DNA of 41,685 bases from a virus. The stretch lies in the IMG/VR virus record IMGVR_UViG_3300012354_000006, positions 1 through 41,685 of that record. The stretch is one strand, 5' to 3'. Position 1 is the first letter of the stretch; each line of letters starts with the position of its first letter. Shown piece by piece: positions 16,359-37,990 of the stretch. Below the pieces are notes generated by a model. The model had not been told where the DNA came from and did not search any database. It was given only the letters and a program-made list of their open reading frames with translations. Both the position numbers and the translations under genes were made by a program.

Positions 16359-17180
16359 TCATAGTAACCTTCCCCCTTCAGGCCATTCACTAGGGAGTTT
16401 CCTATTCTTACTCATATTGCATGGTGCACAGGCTATCACCAGATTGCTCATGTCATTGGAACCACCACGACTCAGAGGGACAACGTGATCAACATGATGT
16501 TTACCCCATTTGACTTTATGTTGACAGTAGTAACATTTGCCCTTTTGCCGCGTATATTGTTCTTGGATCTGCTGTGCAGTATGCGTTCCATTAGCCGCAC
16601 GTTTATGAGCGCGTCGGTTACGTGCATTGACACGTCTAAGATCTCGCGTCTTTGGGCGGTTGAGGTAGGTCTTGTTATATTCGCGTGCCTGCTCACGTAC
16701 ACGCTCATGTGTTCCTGGTGTATGATAGTAGGCTAAATCCGTTTCACGCTTATGCTCTTTGTTCTCTGGCTGGCCATAATAATCTCGTCGGTAGGATTGC
16801 ATATAATCTCGTCTATGCTCTTGCACCTCTGGACGGCTCTTATATTCCTGTGTCCAAGCTTGCCGCTTTGGGGTTGTATGCCGTTCCTTGTCTCGTAAAC
16901 GGTTGCGCTCTTTTATATCTGGACGGGCGTTATATTCTTTTTCTCTAGCACGTTCTCGCTCTTTAATATCGGCACGGTTTCGATACTCCGCTTTTTTATC
17001 CAGTATGTGCTCACGTACACCAGGACTATTCTGGTATGCTTTTACACAGGCTTTGCATCGGTACATTAGGCCATCTTTCTGGCTCTTGCAGCGATGAAAG
17101 AAATCAGTGGTTGCAGGGAAGGAATTCTCACATACGGTACATTGTTTGCAGGGCGTGTTGTCTTGAGGTATAGTGTCCAT
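16359..17180 (-). CDS. HNH endonuclease with zinc-finger N-terminus and Arg-rich repeats
   Basis: 273 residues from ATG 17180 (TTGGAG site), the longer frame to 17294 being unlikely. Residues 11-45 carry Cys pairs (CKQCTVC, then CKAC) that should bind zinc. Residues of about 55-195 hold roughly seven degenerate repeats of 17-22 residues, each built on a 'RP-[ED]-[IV]-[KQ]-E-[HR]-x-R' phrase, very basic. The C-terminus is a canonical HNH: CYYC at about 216-219, HHVDHVVPLSRGG, and CAPCNMSK. HNH enzymes beside terminase genes help cos cleavage in many phages, but the repeat array and isolated insertion also fit a homing endonuclease. Confidence 0.88.
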   Translation of the reverse strand: MDTIPQDNTPCKQCTVCENSFPATTDFFHRCKSQKDGLMYRCKACVKAYQNSPGVREHILDKKAEYRNRADIKERERAREKEYNARPDIKERNRLRDKERHTTPKRQAWTQEYKSRPEVQEHRRDYMQSYRRDYYGQPENKEHKRETDLAYYHTPGTHERVREQAREYNKTYLNRPKTRDLRRVNARNRRAHKRAANGTHTAQQIQEQYTRQKGKCYYCQHKVKWGKHHVDHVVPLSRGGSNDMSNLVIACAPCNMSKNRKLPSEWPEGGRLL

Positions 17181-17183
17181 GAG

Positions 17184-17202
17184 ACATCTCCAATTCAGAT
17201 GT
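17184..17202 (-). promoter_or_regulatory. Hairpin overlapping the HNH ribosome site
   Basis: ACATCT (17184-17189) and AGATGT (17197-17202) form a perfect six-base stem around the loop at 17190-17196. On the mRNA the GGAG of the ribosome site (17188-17191) falls half in the stem, a few bases before ATG 17180. Such a stem could lower translation of the nuclease, as known for several phage homing endonuclease genes; its effect here is inference. Confidence 0.4.
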
Positions 17203-17208
17203 TTCCGG

Positions 17209-17234
17209 CTAGGAGTGTTTGCAGCACTGCCTAG
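17209..17234 (-). promoter_or_regulatory. Second hairpin in the HNH leader
   Basis: CTAGG/CCTAG (17209-17213 and 17230-17234) and AGTG/CACT (17214-17217 and 17225-17228) pair with one bulged base and a seven-base loop. It lies in the 106-base gap between small terminase and HNH genes. No T-run follows, so it is not a standard terminator. Confidence 0.35.
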
Positions 17235-17286
17235 CGCAACAATATTTATGAGCTTATTATAGCATAAACCAGCTTGTAGAGCAAGT

Positions 17287-17727
17287 TTACTCACTCTTTA
17301 CCTCCCCGAGATACTGGTGAGGAATTTCCCTTATAATTATTTGATTCGCGACATTGGCCGCGTCCCGCTCCTGATCCAATCCCATCAACTCACTAATCCT
17401 TTTCGAGAGTGTGACGAACCGGTCCACTGCCCACGTCCAATTGGTATTCTTCTCATCGATGCCAGCCTTGTAACATCTCGCTTGCAATGTCGCTAACATG
17501 TAGTACTGTTTGTCGCGTAGTTCCTGTACATTGCGTGTGACACATCGGTCCAATTCTCGCTGTACTGCATTGTGAGCGGCCCCACGTGATGCATACCCTG
17601 CCTGTGCAGCGATGTCATCCCAGGACTGCACACCCTCCATATAGAGCTTGATTGCTGCTTGTGCACGGACGGCGGCATTGACATCACGGGTTGTACCACC
17701 AGTGTTTTTTGCTCGTCTACCGCTCAT
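17287..17727 (-). CDS. terS: Terminase small subunit
   Basis: 146 residues from ATG 17727 (AAAGGATG site). An N-terminal helix-turn-helix-like segment (SWDDIAAQAGYASRGAAHNA) is followed by helices (LDRCVTRNVQELRDKQYYML) and a short tail (IIIREIPHQYLGEVKSE), the usual plan of phage small terminases that bind the packaging site. It is upstream of the HNH and large terminase genes in the same direction. Confidence 0.75.
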   Translation of the reverse strand: MSGRRAKNTGGTTRDVNAAVRAQAAIKLYMEGVQSWDDIAAQAGYASRGAAHNAVQRELDRCVTRNVQELRDKQYYMLATLQARCYKAGIDEKNTNWTWAVDRFVTLSKRISELMGLDQERDAANVANQIIIREIPHQYLGEVKSE

Positions 17728-26397: not shown

Positions 26398-27703
26398 AAC
26401 TCACCTCCTGATTCTGCACAAGAGGCTTGACCGGATAGAACTCTTTGTTTAATTGCTCTTGCCCATAGTTCGGATCATCGAACGAGGACAGGTGGATTCT
26501 CTTCTTCCCATGGTGGTACTCGGGATCTTCCGCAGGCTGTGCCGCCAGTGAGCGGAATCGTTCAAAATCGCGTGCCACGTCACCCAGGTGCATGCCATGT
26601 GTCCGATACCAGCCTTTGCTGTCCGTCTGGTACATCCACAAGCGGCATGCAGCAATCTCACCAGGATCAGGCTGAAAAGCTGCAAGTGAGGTTGCATGCT
26701 CAAGCAGTTTCGCGGTGGTCGGTGCGGGCGTCTTGAAGATCGCCCGCCACTCAGTGATCACGGCCTGCACTTCCCGTGGCGCTGACTCAAAGAGATCAGG
26801 CTTTATCGGTGCCGAGGTTCTCTTTCTCGCAGTACTTCGCTGCATGCGTTCATCAGCCAGAGCTCGGCCCGTATTTCCCGCAGCACCTGGTGAATGACGT
26901 TGAGAAGTATCCCTATCAGGGACAGAACGAGTAGCCCTAGAGACAGAATCAGGGCGATCATCTCGATCACGATGATTGATGGCATGGTATTCCTTTCCCC
27001 CGTCTGGGACCGTAGCACCCGACCCTGTTGGGGTTGTTGCTTGTGTAACATCTTCATTTTGTTCTGGAAGAGGCGTGTGCGGTGTGGTGGCTGCGAATGC
27101 AGCACCATAACTCTGTGCCGAATCTATGACAGGAATCTGTGTTGAATCTATGATAGATTCTATGTTGTAGTTACTTTTGGACGGGTCAACATCCATTTTT
27201 GAATGCGACCCGTTTATTTTTGGATGGGAGACCCGTTTATTTTTGGACGGGTCGCATTCACTTTTAGACCCGTTTATTTTTGGACGGGTCGCATGTGGAT
27301 CACGTTGCGGGAGTGCTCGTATCCGCTCATTAATGAGTTGGTAGTTGAGCAGGTACTTGAAGGTATCCCGTCCGAACATCTTATAGGGCTCGCGGGAAAG
27401 GAACCCTTCCCCCATCAAGACTTCCAGGCTATCAATCACCACGGTACGGCCATACATGCCGTACATCTCATCGATCCATTGCTGATAGCTCATGAAGACA
27501 AAGAGATCGTCGCCTCTTCCTCGCTTATCATTGGTCCAGTGTTCCATGATAGAGAGTACGAAGGATTCGCAATAAGGCGAGGCAGCGGTACGCTTCTTTC
27601 CTGGTTTTTTATACGTGATCTCTCCGCAGAGCGCGAGGTAATCTTCTCTGAACTCCACATAATACATATTGGCTTTGTGTTCGATAATGCTCTGGTTGCT
27701 CAT
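26378..27703 (-). CDS. Replication initiator-like protein (O-type), origin inside the gene
   Basis: 441 residues. Residues 1-130 look like a winged-helix replication N-terminus (SFVLSIMEHWTNDKRGRGDD, DSLEVLMGEGFLSREPYKMF). Residues 133-175 are the low-complexity translation of the iterons (PKINGSKSECDPSKNKR). Residues 200-300 are a disordered linker. The C-terminal 150 residues (AVITEWRAIFKTPAPTTAKL onward) resemble the DnaD/replication-protein C-terminal region. An internal origin is known for lambda O. Upstream of the helicase loader and methyltransferase, so replication is the inferred role. Confidence 0.7.
   Translation of the reverse strand: MSNQSIIEHKANMYYVEFREDYLALCGEITYKKPGKKRTAASPYCESFVLSIMEHWTNDKRGRGDDLFVFMSYQQWIDEMYGMYGRTVVIDSLEVLMGEGFLSREPYKMFGRDTFKYLLNYQLINERIRALPQRDPHATRPKINGSKSECDPSKNKRVSHPKINGSHSKMDVDPSKSNYNIESIIDSTQIPVIDSAQSYGAAFAATTPHTPLPEQNEDVTQATTPTGSGATVPDGGKEYHAINHRDRDDRPDSVSRATRSVPDRDTSQRHSPGAAGNTGRALADERMQRSTARKRTSAPIKPDLFESAPREVQAVITEWRAIFKTPAPTTAKLLEHATSLAAFQPDPGEIAACRLWMYQTDSKGWYRTHGMHLGDVARDFERFRSLAAQPAEDPEYHHGKKRIHLSSFDDPNYGQEQLNKEFYPVKPLVQNQEVSYAATTF
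27121..27296. repeat. Iteron-type origin region within the initiator gene
   Basis: GACCCGTTTATTTTTGGA recurs at 27207, 27230 and 27267. The copies at 27230-27253 and 27267-27290 are identical 24-mers whose ends GACCCG/CGGGTC are inverted repeats. A half unit (TTACTTTTGGACGGGTC) lies at 27171-27187. Beside them, 27121-27170 is AT-rich with repeats of GAATCTATGA. Iterons plus an AT-rich stretch in an initiator gene is the classic layout for phage origins; replication activity is not shown. Confidence 0.6.
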
Positions 27704-28007: not shown

Positions 28008-28084
28008 GTCATTCATCCTCTCTTGCGTATAGCCTCATCAATAACACAACAATATGGACTTTTAGGCTAGCCCATGCTATGCTA

Positions 28085-28320
28085 TGGATGAGCAATGCGC
28101 AGTGTTGCATGAGCTAGATGCAACACTGGCAATGGCACACCTGTATGGTGTCTGGCCTCAAGGTCTCTATACTGGTTGGTCTGGTCTCTCTCACTCCTCA
28201 TGCGTGTACTGGATGGCTAGTCCTTATCGGTGGTTGGATACGGAAAGACCACCATTGACAGGCGCATTGCTTGCCCCCGTTCATCCCCGTAGTGCTTCCA
28301 CAACACGACAGGAAAAACAC
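28085..28320 (+). ncRNA. Candidate IS110 bridge RNA region
   Basis: This stretch between the left end and the transposase ATG has no gene. It begins with a perfect 10-bp hairpin: AGTGTTGCAT at 28101-28110 and ATGCAACACT at 28118-28127, with loop GAGCTAG. A second stem follows (ACACC/GGTGT near 28137-28153). IS110 elements encode a bridge RNA in the non-coding end, starting with a 5' stem-loop followed by target and donor loops, so position and first hairpin fit. The two loops were not resolved by eye. Confidence 0.5.
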
Positions 28321-29673
28321 ATGAAACTCTATTTCGGTATCGATGTTGGCAAATCCAACCACGTTGCAGCCCTGCTTTCGCGTCGGCTGCTTACCCGCTA
28401 CGGCCACTATCACCTGTGCCCAACCTTCAAGATTGAACAGTCCCGAGCAGGCTTTTTGAGCTTGCTTGGAATCATCAAAGAACATGGCCGCCCGACTGAG
28501 ACGTGCGTCCTGTTGGAGCGTACTGGACACTATGGCCAGGCGCTTGAGCAATTCTTGCAAGATCACGGCGTCAAGACCTATCGCATCCTGGCACAGACAC
28601 GTTACGGCAAAAACAAAACAGATAAACACGATGCCAGAGCGTTGGCAGCCATGCTCTACAGTCAGGTTGAACTGCATGCGCCAGTAGTGAATGAGAAAGA
28701 TCGTGTCTGGCAGATCAAAGCACCATCGGATGCTGCAAGTTGTTTGCGCGGCCATGTGCACCGTCGGTATGAGTTGGTGAACGAGAGCACGCAACGACGC
28801 AACCAATTGACCGCCATTTGTGACGAGCTCTTTCCAGAATTCACAGAAGTTTACACTGACCCCAACAGTGAGAGCGCGCTGCAGCTTCGAGAGAAGTTCC
28901 CAACGCCGCAGGCCTGCGCCAGTGCCAGCATTGACGATCTCTGCGCAACACGCAAACACACCAGGCCCAGTCGTGCCGACCTTGCCAGCCTGCAGCAGCT
29001 GGCAAGAGCGACTATCGGCACGACCGACCACGCCCGTCGGAGTAGTTTGCTTCTTGAGCAAGAACAGCTCATTGCAGAACTGCGCTTGCTCTGTGCCCAT
29101 ATCGGACGCCTGGAAGATGAGATTGCTGTCATTCTGGAAACATCCCGTGAAGGACAAATCTTGAACAGCTTCCCAGGCATCGGACCGATTAACGGCGCGG
29201 TGTTGCTGGCTGGCATAGGCTCCATTGCCAACTTCACAAGTAGCGCCAAGTTGCGTGGCTATCTCGGGTGGGCGCCCAAAGCTACACAGACCGGGACATC
29301 CTACGATAGCATCACTCTGGATAAAGGCGGCAATGTCTTGCTTAAGCGAACGATGTATCTGATTGCCATCAGTGCGATCCGTTCCGATCCTAGTTGGAAA
29401 CTCTTGTATAACAGACTCGTCGAGAGAAAGTGTGACTACGACGCCAGAACGGGCAAGTATCGCGGCAAAATGAAAGTGATCGGTCGCATCGCTGGCCAGA
29501 TCATTGGTGTGTTGTACGTGTTGCTGAGAAAAGATTACGATCTGCTGGCAGCCCTTGCGCCAGACGAGAAACCGCCGCCACCTGAGTTGTACGACGTGCA
29601 CAAGCATAGTATTCGGTTGAAAGCAGGAGAGAATCGTCATGGAAGCCCCTCACGAAACCGCTTGCAGAGCTGA
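28321..29673 (+). CDS. IS110-family transposase (DEDD)
   Basis: 450 residues from ATG 28321, which precedes MKLYFGIDVGKSNHVAALLS; a longer frame to 28084 crosses the bridge RNA region. The RuvC-like DEDD residues are D8 (FGIDVG), E66 (LLERTGHYG) and D101/D104 (KTDKHDARALA). The C-terminal Tnp20 domain has SFPGIGPINGAVLLAGIG and GWAPKATQTGTSYDS, where S327 is the probable nucleophile. The length is normal for the family, and the frame is intact, so the copy may be active. Confidence 0.9.
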   Translation: MKLYFGIDVGKSNHVAALLSRRLLTRYGHYHLCPTFKIEQSRAGFLSLLGIIKEHGRPTETCVLLERTGHYGQALEQFLQDHGVKTYRILAQTRYGKNKTDKHDARALAAMLYSQVELHAPVVNEKDRVWQIKAPSDAASCLRGHVHRRYELVNESTQRRNQLTAICDELFPEFTEVYTDPNSESALQLREKFPTPQACASASIDDLCATRKHTRPSRADLASLQQLARATIGTTDHARRSSLLLEQEQLIAELRLLCAHIGRLEDEIAVILETSREGQILNSFPGIGPINGAVLLAGIGSIANFTSSAKLRGYLGWAPKATQTGTSYDSITLDKGGNVLLKRTMYLIAISAIRSDPSWKLLYNRLVERKCDYDARTGKYRGKMKVIGRIAGQIIGVLYVLLRKDYDLLAALAPDEKPPPPELYDVHKHSIRLKAGENRHGSPSRNRLQS

Positions 29674-37093: not shown

Positions 37094-37405
37094 ATGTATA
37101 GCGAACAAACCTACGAACAAAATTGCGCAAGATGGTTGAATCCAACGCAGGAAGAGCTCCTCTCGTGGGGAGACAAGACTATTAAGAACGGTACCACCTA
37201 CCGAGAAATTAAAGCTTGTGTCCCTGGGGATGTTGCACTCAATCGCTATAACGCAGAGTTGCAGTCGGACGGCATTACATGGAAAGTTTTCCATATGTCA
37301 GAGGACGAGTTTTTGCAGAAATACCGCATGCATCATATGGTAAGCATTGGATTTAGGACGGTAGATATCTACCGTCCCGCTGATAGTCCCTACTGGCGAC
37401 GTTGA
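37094..37405 (+). CDS. Hypothetical protein, last gene of the early operon
   Basis: 103 residues, starting MYSEQTYEQNCARWLNPTQE, and YAYRMHHMVS-like aromatic segments near the end (QKYRMHHMVSIGFRTVDIYR). It lies just before the mini-CRISPR-like unit, whose promoter overlaps its last codons. No family recognised. Confidence 0.6.
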   Translation: MYSEQTYEQNCARWLNPTQEELLSWGDKTIKNGTTYREIKACVPGDVALNRYNAELQSDGITWKVFHMSEDEFLQKYRMHHMVSIGFRTVDIYRPADSPYWRR

Positions 37406-37430
37406 CAGTGATTAATTTGTGTGCTATTCT
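37402..37430 (+). promoter_or_regulatory. Promoter of the mini-CRISPR-like unit
   Basis: TTGACA (37402-37407), 17 bases, TATTCT (37425-37430). It is a perfect -35 with a reasonable -10, starting about 20 bases before the first degenerate repeat, with no ORF and no ribosome site downstream. The array thus has its own promoter. Confidence 0.65.
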
Positions 37431-37455
37431 CTTCTCTGTATCCACTGTAGCTAAT

Positions 37456-37715
37456 GGGTACAGAGAACTAGCCCGTTTGAGGATACTGCAAAAATGCACA
37501 TATAGAGCCGATTTGTTACATGTCGACTAGTTACAATGCCATCGATCCGTTTGAGGATACTGCAAACTTCTGTGAGCTGCAACCGGCGGACATGCGCCCA
37601 ATGTTACAATGCCATCGATCCGTTTGAGGATACTGCAAAGGACGTTGTTGTAAGTTACGTCTTGCCATGCCATTGGCCCGTGAGAGGGTACTGCAACGTG
37701 AGAGGGTACTGCAAC
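37456..37715 (+). CRISPR. Phage-borne mini-CRISPR-like array without cas genes
   Basis: Two identical 37-base repeats, R2 at 37530-37566 and R3 at 37603-37639, are separated by a unique 36-base spacer (37567-37602). R1, degenerate in its 5' half, ends at 37492 and is 37 bases (37493-37529) before R2. R4, diverged (about 27 of 37 match), spans about 37661-37697, and its last 18 bases are duplicated at 37697-37714. The repeats begin GTTACAATGCC and end GAGGATACTGCAAA. Stem ATCC-GTTTGA-GGAT in R2/R3 becomes GCCC-GTGAGA-GGGT in R4, so pairing is kept while bases change. Repeat and spacer sizes fit CRISPR; no cas gene is in the window, so function would depend on the host system. Confidence 0.75.
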
Positions 37716-37729
37716 CGAATAGCCGCTAA

Positions 37730-37766
37730 AACAAGCCTCCTGAACTATCCATTCAGGAGGCTTGTT
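37730..37766. terminator. Strong bidirectional terminator after the array
   Basis: AACAAGCCTCCTGAA (37730-37744) and TTCAGGAGGCTTGTT (37752-37766) form a 15-bp perfect stem with loop CTATCCA. On the plus strand TTT ends the stem; on the minus strand TTTT follows. It closes the array transcript and the minus-strand operon from the right. Confidence 0.9.
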
Positions 37767-37771
37767 TGTGT

Positions 37772-37990
37772 CTACACCTTTGGCGGTTCTGGCGTTATTG
37801 GCTGTGTCGCATTGCTCTGCGTCGGTTGCCAGCGGAACGCACCCGACAAGAACCAGAACGAGATGAGCGGTGAAGTCGCCGCAAACGCATCTTGTGGTGG
37901 CACGATATGCAGAACTAATAAGATCGTGATCATTGCAATGAAGGTGACCGAGATAATGAGTGTCGGTAACTCTTGTAGAAAGTTGTTCAT
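37772..37990 (-). CDS. Small single-span membrane protein
   Basis: 72 residues. LIISVTFIAMITILLVLHIV is a membrane span, and a polar Pro/Thr-rich tail follows. It is the last gene of the minus lysis operon, before the terminator. It may be an accessory lysis or entry-exclusion protein. The RBS (AAGGAC) is far from the ATG, so the start is uncertain. Confidence 0.5.
   Translation of the reverse strand: MNNFLQELPTLIISVTFIAMITILLVLHIVPPQDAFAATSPLISFWFLSGAFRWQPTQSNATQPITPEPPKV

Follow-up and report, generated by a model that had tools for sequence, protein, structure and literature searches.

The window analysed here, which is the whole 41,685-bp stretch of IMG/VR virus record IMGVR_UViG_3300012354_000006, holds a short repeat array between two phage operons. 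This array is best read, with an estimated probability of about 0.5, as a virus-borne mini-array of clustered regularly interspaced short palindromic repeats (CRISPR) that lacks cas genes and carries two full spacers, whose CRISPR RNAs (crRNAs) would be used through a type I or III complex of the host against a competitor. A second contig, IMGVR_UViG_3300012350_000092 (L003), overlaps the window at both ends, closing the genome at 45,318 bp, and contains the array too, the two being 100% identical across 5,095 bp. The array contains at least two near-identical repeats with unrelated spacers of regular length between them, as mini-arrays do: repeats of 37 nt, with the motif GTTRCAATGCCATYGRYCCGTKWGAGGRTACTGCAAM, and spacers of 37 and 36 nt. 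All other exact direct repeats in the assembled genome are shorter than this 37-mer. Because the two spacers are unrelated, having 9 positions in common, a plain tandem duplication, the ordinary explanation raised in the preliminary description, is excluded for the intact part. The intact units measure 73 and 74 nt, later copies following at 58 and 18, and a promoter and a hairpin flank the array on the + strand. Its parts are as follows.

37402..37430, + strand: sigma-70-type promoter, TTGACA-17 nt-TATTCT with TG ahead of the -10, 10/12 matches
37432-37444 / 37455-37467, + strand: 13-bp near-perfect dyad, TTCTCTGTATCCA/TGGGTACAGAGAA, an inverted repeat 92% complementary, over the expected transcription start
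37472..37492, + strand: partial repeat 1, the 3' half of the repeat only, with 20 nt identical to repeats 2 and 3
37493..37529, + strand: spacer 1, 37 nt
37530..37566, + strand: repeat 2, 37 nt, stem ATCC/GGAT, 8-nt tag ACTGCAAA
37567..37602, + strand: spacer 2, 36 nt
37603..37639, + strand: repeat 3, same sequence as repeat 2
37640..37660, + strand: third interval, 21 nt, perhaps a truncated spacer
37661..37697, + strand: repeat 4, diverged (73%), stem GCCC/GGGT, tag ACTGCAAC
37698..37715, + strand: remnant repeat 5, 18 nt, a tandem copy of the 3' part of repeat 4
37729-37744 / 37752-37767, + strand: 16-bp hairpin with A-tract and T-tract flanks, an inverted repeat 100% complementary

The sequence bears out the core of the preliminary description, namely the TTGACA-17-TATTCT promoter, the two identical 37-nt repeats, the 37- and 36-nt spacers and the diverged fourth repeat. 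Other details required revision. The degenerate first repeat is present only as a 20–21-nt 3' half, its 5' half being replaced by one arm of the 13-bp dyad, and the count of four copies was incomplete, a fifth surviving as the 18-nt remnant at 37698-37715. The stem described as a 15-bp terminator does form a hairpin, of 16 bp, which is a probable bidirectional intrinsic terminator; a terminator scan did not list the hairpin at 37729-37767 because its T-run is imperfect (TTGTTTGTGT). Counting both strands, only 8 sites in the 45.3 kb match at 10/12 positions or better; the promoter, with the -35 at 37402-37407 and the -10 at 37425-37430, is among them, and the promoter scan revealed none on the - strand side of the array. 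The 13-bp dyad may serve as an operator or as a 5' hairpin.

On the + strand the repeat folds into a 4-bp stem, ATCC/GGAT, followed by exactly 8 bases, ACTGCAAA, and copy 4 forms GCCC/GGGT followed by ACTGCAAC. Cas6-processed type I and III repeats are built in this way, as a stem-loop with an 8-nt tag on its 3' side, and the + strand repeat has that shape. The 8-nt tag (ACTGCAAA/C) resembles the tags ATTGCGAC and ATTGAAAC. Conservation of the stem by paired changes between copies, as previously proposed, held in part: from ATCC/GGAT to GCCC/GGGT there is one true double change (T-A to C-G), together with one wobble (A-T to G-T) and two unchanged pairs, and in partial repeat 1 (GCCC/GGAT) one pair is broken. 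Repeat alignments were scored against 1000 dinucleotide shuffles, using as a control the Thermus thermophilus pTT27 (L257) type III repeat, GTTGCAAGGGATTGAGCCCCGTAAGGGGATTGCGAC, whose arrays have 73-78-nt units, close to the 73/74-nt units of the window, and are flanked by cas10/csm/cmr genes. The + strand repeat aligned to the Thermus repeat with z 3.7-3.8, a score reached by 0-2/1000 shuffles, as against a z of only 1.4-1.6 for the - strand. Both repeats are 36-37 nt long and place an 8-nt tag after the stem (ATTGCGAC in Thermus versus ACTGCAAC); they differ in that identity is ca. 60%, and that the Thermus arrays are long, lie beside cas genes and belong to a thermophile of another phylum than the likely host. 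Rfam recognised the Thermus repeat, which indicates that the test works; since the window unit matched no Rfam CRISPR repeat family, even at E 10, its class assignment rests on layout and modest similarity rather than on family membership.

The array being devoid of Cas proteins of its own, the phage probably borrows host CRISPR machinery. The unit would be transcribed during infection from 37402, and a host Cas6-type enzyme would cut at each stem base to release crRNAs of the form ACTGCAAA-spacer-GTTACAATGCC...; processed units of ~70 nt would begin with ACUGCAAA. Partial repeat 1 retains just the 3' half that would be needed as the 5' tag of spacer 1. The crRNAs, with the 5' tag ACTGCAAA, would then be loaded on the host's own type I or III complex, which the two spacers would steer to a competing phage or other mobile element. 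There are documented cases of viruses with mini-arrays that make use of host Cas proteins (PMC6858448, PMC11656645).

The absence of cas genes, as first described, was upheld. PADLOC was run on 30 proteins, not all of the small open reading frames (ORFs) and of the proteins of a 3.6-kb gap being in that set, and HNH-domain matches aside it found no Cas protein among them. Neither the window nor L003 matched the Cas12f1-like/TnpB zinc-ribbon family, and the phage has no homologue of Cas12m or of the V-U4-like effector of a relative described below. Several candidates were rejected. PADLOC matches to Cas9 at 16359-17294 are confined to the HNH portion of an endonuclease VII/HNH protein of 311 aa, and the 529-aa "transposase" at 28084-29673, considered as a Cas12 of the phage's own, is of the IS110 type and not TnpB/Cas12. 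A search for an anti-repeat like that of a trans-activating crRNA gave as its best complementary match 11 nt (E 0.24), which was taken as none.

Several observations weigh against the use of the array for targeting, or against its assignment to a host system. The exact 18-nt core of the repeat occurs in no array across 84,980 prokaryote species; five genome matches to it were all single copies in protein-like sequence, and in IMG/VR it occurs only in the second contig of the same virus. The preliminary description had named the lack of any host CRISPR with a related repeat as the outcome that would speak against it, and these data go weakly in that direction, as the host may lie outside the species covered; the unmatched repeat points to an unsequenced host CRISPR. 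The spacer searches made, against phage, own genome and viral contigs, found no targets. Nothing rose above shuffle level in the phage's own genome and 2.0 Mb of mostly related-phage sequence, the spacers were unmatched in 50,697 phage records, and in 2.9 million viral contigs, where the search was for exact matches to the 5' halves only, the 18-mers from the spacers' 5' ends occurred in this virus alone. A 15-nt exact match of spacer 1 to the related phage G016 (18/37 overall) and a 20-nt match on a Ciceribacter plasmid (E 3) were attributed to chance. Mini-arrays described so far match, for the most part, related viruses, and their repeats are the same as those of the host (PMC11656645). Furthermore, since the repeat is quasi-palindromic, the orientation of the array rests mainly on the promoter; the whole array folds somewhat better on the - strand (z -2.97 vs -1.84), and single repeats fold no better than shuffles.

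CRISPR parts were also found in other phages. Relatives of the phage, with terminases up to 72% identical and probably also mostly from soil, include two with CRISPR arrays, G031 and G033. In G031 (43 kb; terminase 57% identity) a mini-array at L152:1368-1479, adjoining an integrase-like ORF, consists of two 37-nt repeats, in reverse complement GTCGCAATAGCCAGAAACCCGATTGAGGGATTGAAAT, and one 38-nt spacer; the record has no Cas12m match and the spacer was unmatched in the fetched sequences. The window repeat resembles the G031 repeat at a level reached by 0-1/1000 shuffles in either orientation, a comparison that is unbiased because G031 was reached via its terminase and not through repeat similarity. 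The two mini-arrays share phage lineage, 37-nt repeats of related sequence and the lack of a visible cas gene beside them, and differ in that G031 has one spacer, the tag ATTGAAAT and another locus, near the integrase. G033 (61.5 kb; terminase 59%) encodes at L041:6842-8892 a 491-aa effector whose closest match is Cas12u4 (E 1.6e-69), followed after ~20 bp by an array of eight 37-nt repeats, the final two spacers of which are identical. This is a complete miniature CRISPR locus, with a V-U4-like effector of the Cas12/TnpB type and its array. It shares with the window the phage lineage, 37-nt repeats and 72-75-nt units, and differs in encoding its own effector and in a repeat of weak similarity (42-149/1000 shuffles, + strand). 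With a mini-array in one relative and a V-U4-like Cas12 plus eight-repeat array in the other, CRISPR parts recur in this phage group.

Pattern searches in viral contigs extended this survey. The 5' half of the repeat, sought as a tandem pattern, returned 95 stretches, mostly coding or protein-repeat sequence, and no other CRISPR array was recognised in 79 loci newly fetched from it. A pattern fixing the last 11-12 nt of the repeat 3' end yielded, amid coding repeats, two real arrays (L101/G051 and L102/G052). G051 (L101/L143; 42 kb), without a Cas12m match, has at L143:5700-6095 roughly six repeats of 36 nt, which end in TACTGCAAC and come in two sequence variants. A hairpin, CCTCTCGCAAA / TTTGCGAGAGG, follows this array, and the motif GTTTGCGAGAGG recurs beside the G031 mini-array and integrase-like ORF (L152:1515-1680). 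G052, a 13.7-kb viral contig with a large terminase-like ORF, encodes at L102:3491-6520 a 640-aa Cas12m (PADLOC Cas12u1, E 1.6e-109; closest in the PDB, Cas12m chain 23vw), and downstream of it lies a long, partly degenerate array of more than 10 copies. Its repeat, read on the opposite strand, has CCCGTGAG(C)AGGGTACTGCAAC in common with copy 4 (z 7.1), a likeness that is a lead only, because the search pattern fixed part of that stretch. A Cas12m homologue labelled "similar to transposase" also lies beside an annotated CRISPR at L111:5855-7369 of Virus Rctr197k (KX853510), a 197-kb phage, and is probably part of an overlooked phage-borne V-M-like locus.

Among the alternatives to targeting, the one to be taken most seriously, unlikely as it is, holds that the unit is a decoy or RNA anti-CRISPR (Racr), whose target-free crRNA-like RNAs occupy host Cas6 and effector subunits and so blunt immunity. 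The lack of spacer targets in the searches made would fit it, as would the unit's own promoter and hairpin and the stem kept in diverged copy 4. Both uses have support in the literature, competition (PMC6858448, PMC11656645) and decoys (PMC10651486), the decoy study including inhibition by a non-targeting crRNA (PMC10651486). Like the window array, Racr units are phage mimics of a CRISPR repeat behind their own promoter, without cas genes; they consist, however, of a solitary repeat each, clustered or flanked copies having been treated as arrays and excluded in the published search, whereas the window has several copies, 73-74 nt apart, with spacer-sized intervals. Targeting is given an edge between these two possible uses, because a pure decoy would have no use for identical repeats or for distinct spacers of full length. 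It is improbable that the unit is a dedicated, regulated phage RNA cassette, made of operator dyad, promoter, two guide units and terminator, which either reprograms or saturates the host CRISPR complex at the early-to-late switch, and that it is swapped within the lineage as a standardised "guide cartridge".

The array could instead derive from a host array, a piece of which was acquired by recombination; whether or not it is still expressed, it would now be decaying and have no present function. The truncated first copy, the 21-nt third interval, the diverged fourth copy and its tandem remnant all look like decay, and a homologous locus was not found in relatives; since two copies are perfectly identical and promoter and hairpin closely frame the array in a compact phage genome, we consider such a relic doubtful. 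That the array guides a miniature type V effector supplied in trans, Cas12m-like (V-M) or V-U4-like, and is read from the - strand, appears highly unlikely. The sequence that copy 4 shares with the reverse complement of the G052 Cas12m repeat and the V-U4-like locus of G033 speak for it, but the score of the former was inflated by the search pattern. The loop-pairing 3'-end strand of Cas12m crRNA (PMC10442227), seen in the G052 repeat as GCTCAC...GTGAGAG, is missing in the window repeat, and the Cas12m pseudoknot, visible in the L102, Pelobacter and Rctr197k repeats, is absent from copies 2-4, which in the - strand orientation resemble the Pelobacter and Rctr197k V-M repeats at chance level; nor does the array have a - strand promoter or a cas12m gene nearby. 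Least probable of all is that the repeats are not CRISPR, being spaced binding sites of a phage regulator or a structured noncoding RNA with internal duplications at the operon junction. A 73-74-bp spacing is about seven helical turns, the 13-bp dyad overlaps the start site, and Rfam has no CRISPR match; an identical 37-nt unit is, however, long for an operator, later copies break the spacing (58, 18), and repeat and unit length, stem position and tag all fit CRISPR, as does alignment to known CRISPR repeats beyond shuffles.

The tape measure, portal, terminase, major head and major tail proteins of the carrier identify it as a siphovirus, and its G+C content is 53%. As first described, the array lies where two operons converge, between the 3' ends of the rightward early (+) operon and the leftward late (-) operon. 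Their final genes, of which the second is convergent with the array, are the following.

37094..37405, + strand: final early-operon gene, 103 aa, of unknown function; its stop lies inside the -35 element, and it has no relative beyond this virus
37772..37990, - strand: final late-operon gene, 72 aa, of unknown function

Neither flanking gene has relatives in IMG/VR, and as a consequence the array locus cannot be compared across phages; matching regions lack the array. The IS110-type transposase ORF (529 aa, window 28084-29673) begins with ~75 residues that resemble an upstream extension. This element and the G+C content would suit a soil host resembling Ktedonobacteria, although this is a guess. 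Near where the leftward genes start, at window 27203-27295, AGACCCGTTTATTTTTGGACGGGTCGCAT is repeated in tandem (29 nt exact, 37 apart); its copies form hairpins and are possible operators or terminators. A further hairpin-forming exact repeat of 22 nt, TGGCGGTTTCTGCCGCCTGGGG, occurs at window 31663 and 32237, among small early genes.

Virus-borne mini-arrays are already known. Those of the Saccharolobus portogloboviruses SPV1 and SPV2 (PMC6858448) also have 1-2 spacers, an upstream promoter, an intergenic position and no cas genes; unlike the window array, they have host-like repeats and spacers that hit sister viruses, neither of which was found here, and the window array is closed by a hairpin and carried by a soil tailed phage. 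Phage mini-arrays known before that study (PMC6858448) lack leader regions, and the window array differs from them in having a promoter, though no recognisable leader. What sets this case apart is the compact promoter-hairpin unit, a repeat for which the searched databases hold no match, and a phage lineage with several forms of CRISPR cargo. If the array is expressed and its crRNAs loaded, a soil tailed-phage lineage would be added to those viruses known to direct host CRISPR against others. The lineage holds at least three forms, namely a cassette with two spacers and no cas genes, a mini-array with a single spacer, and a Cas12 gene accompanied by an array, and these three provide a natural series for asking whether phage mini-arrays are used in competition or as decoys.
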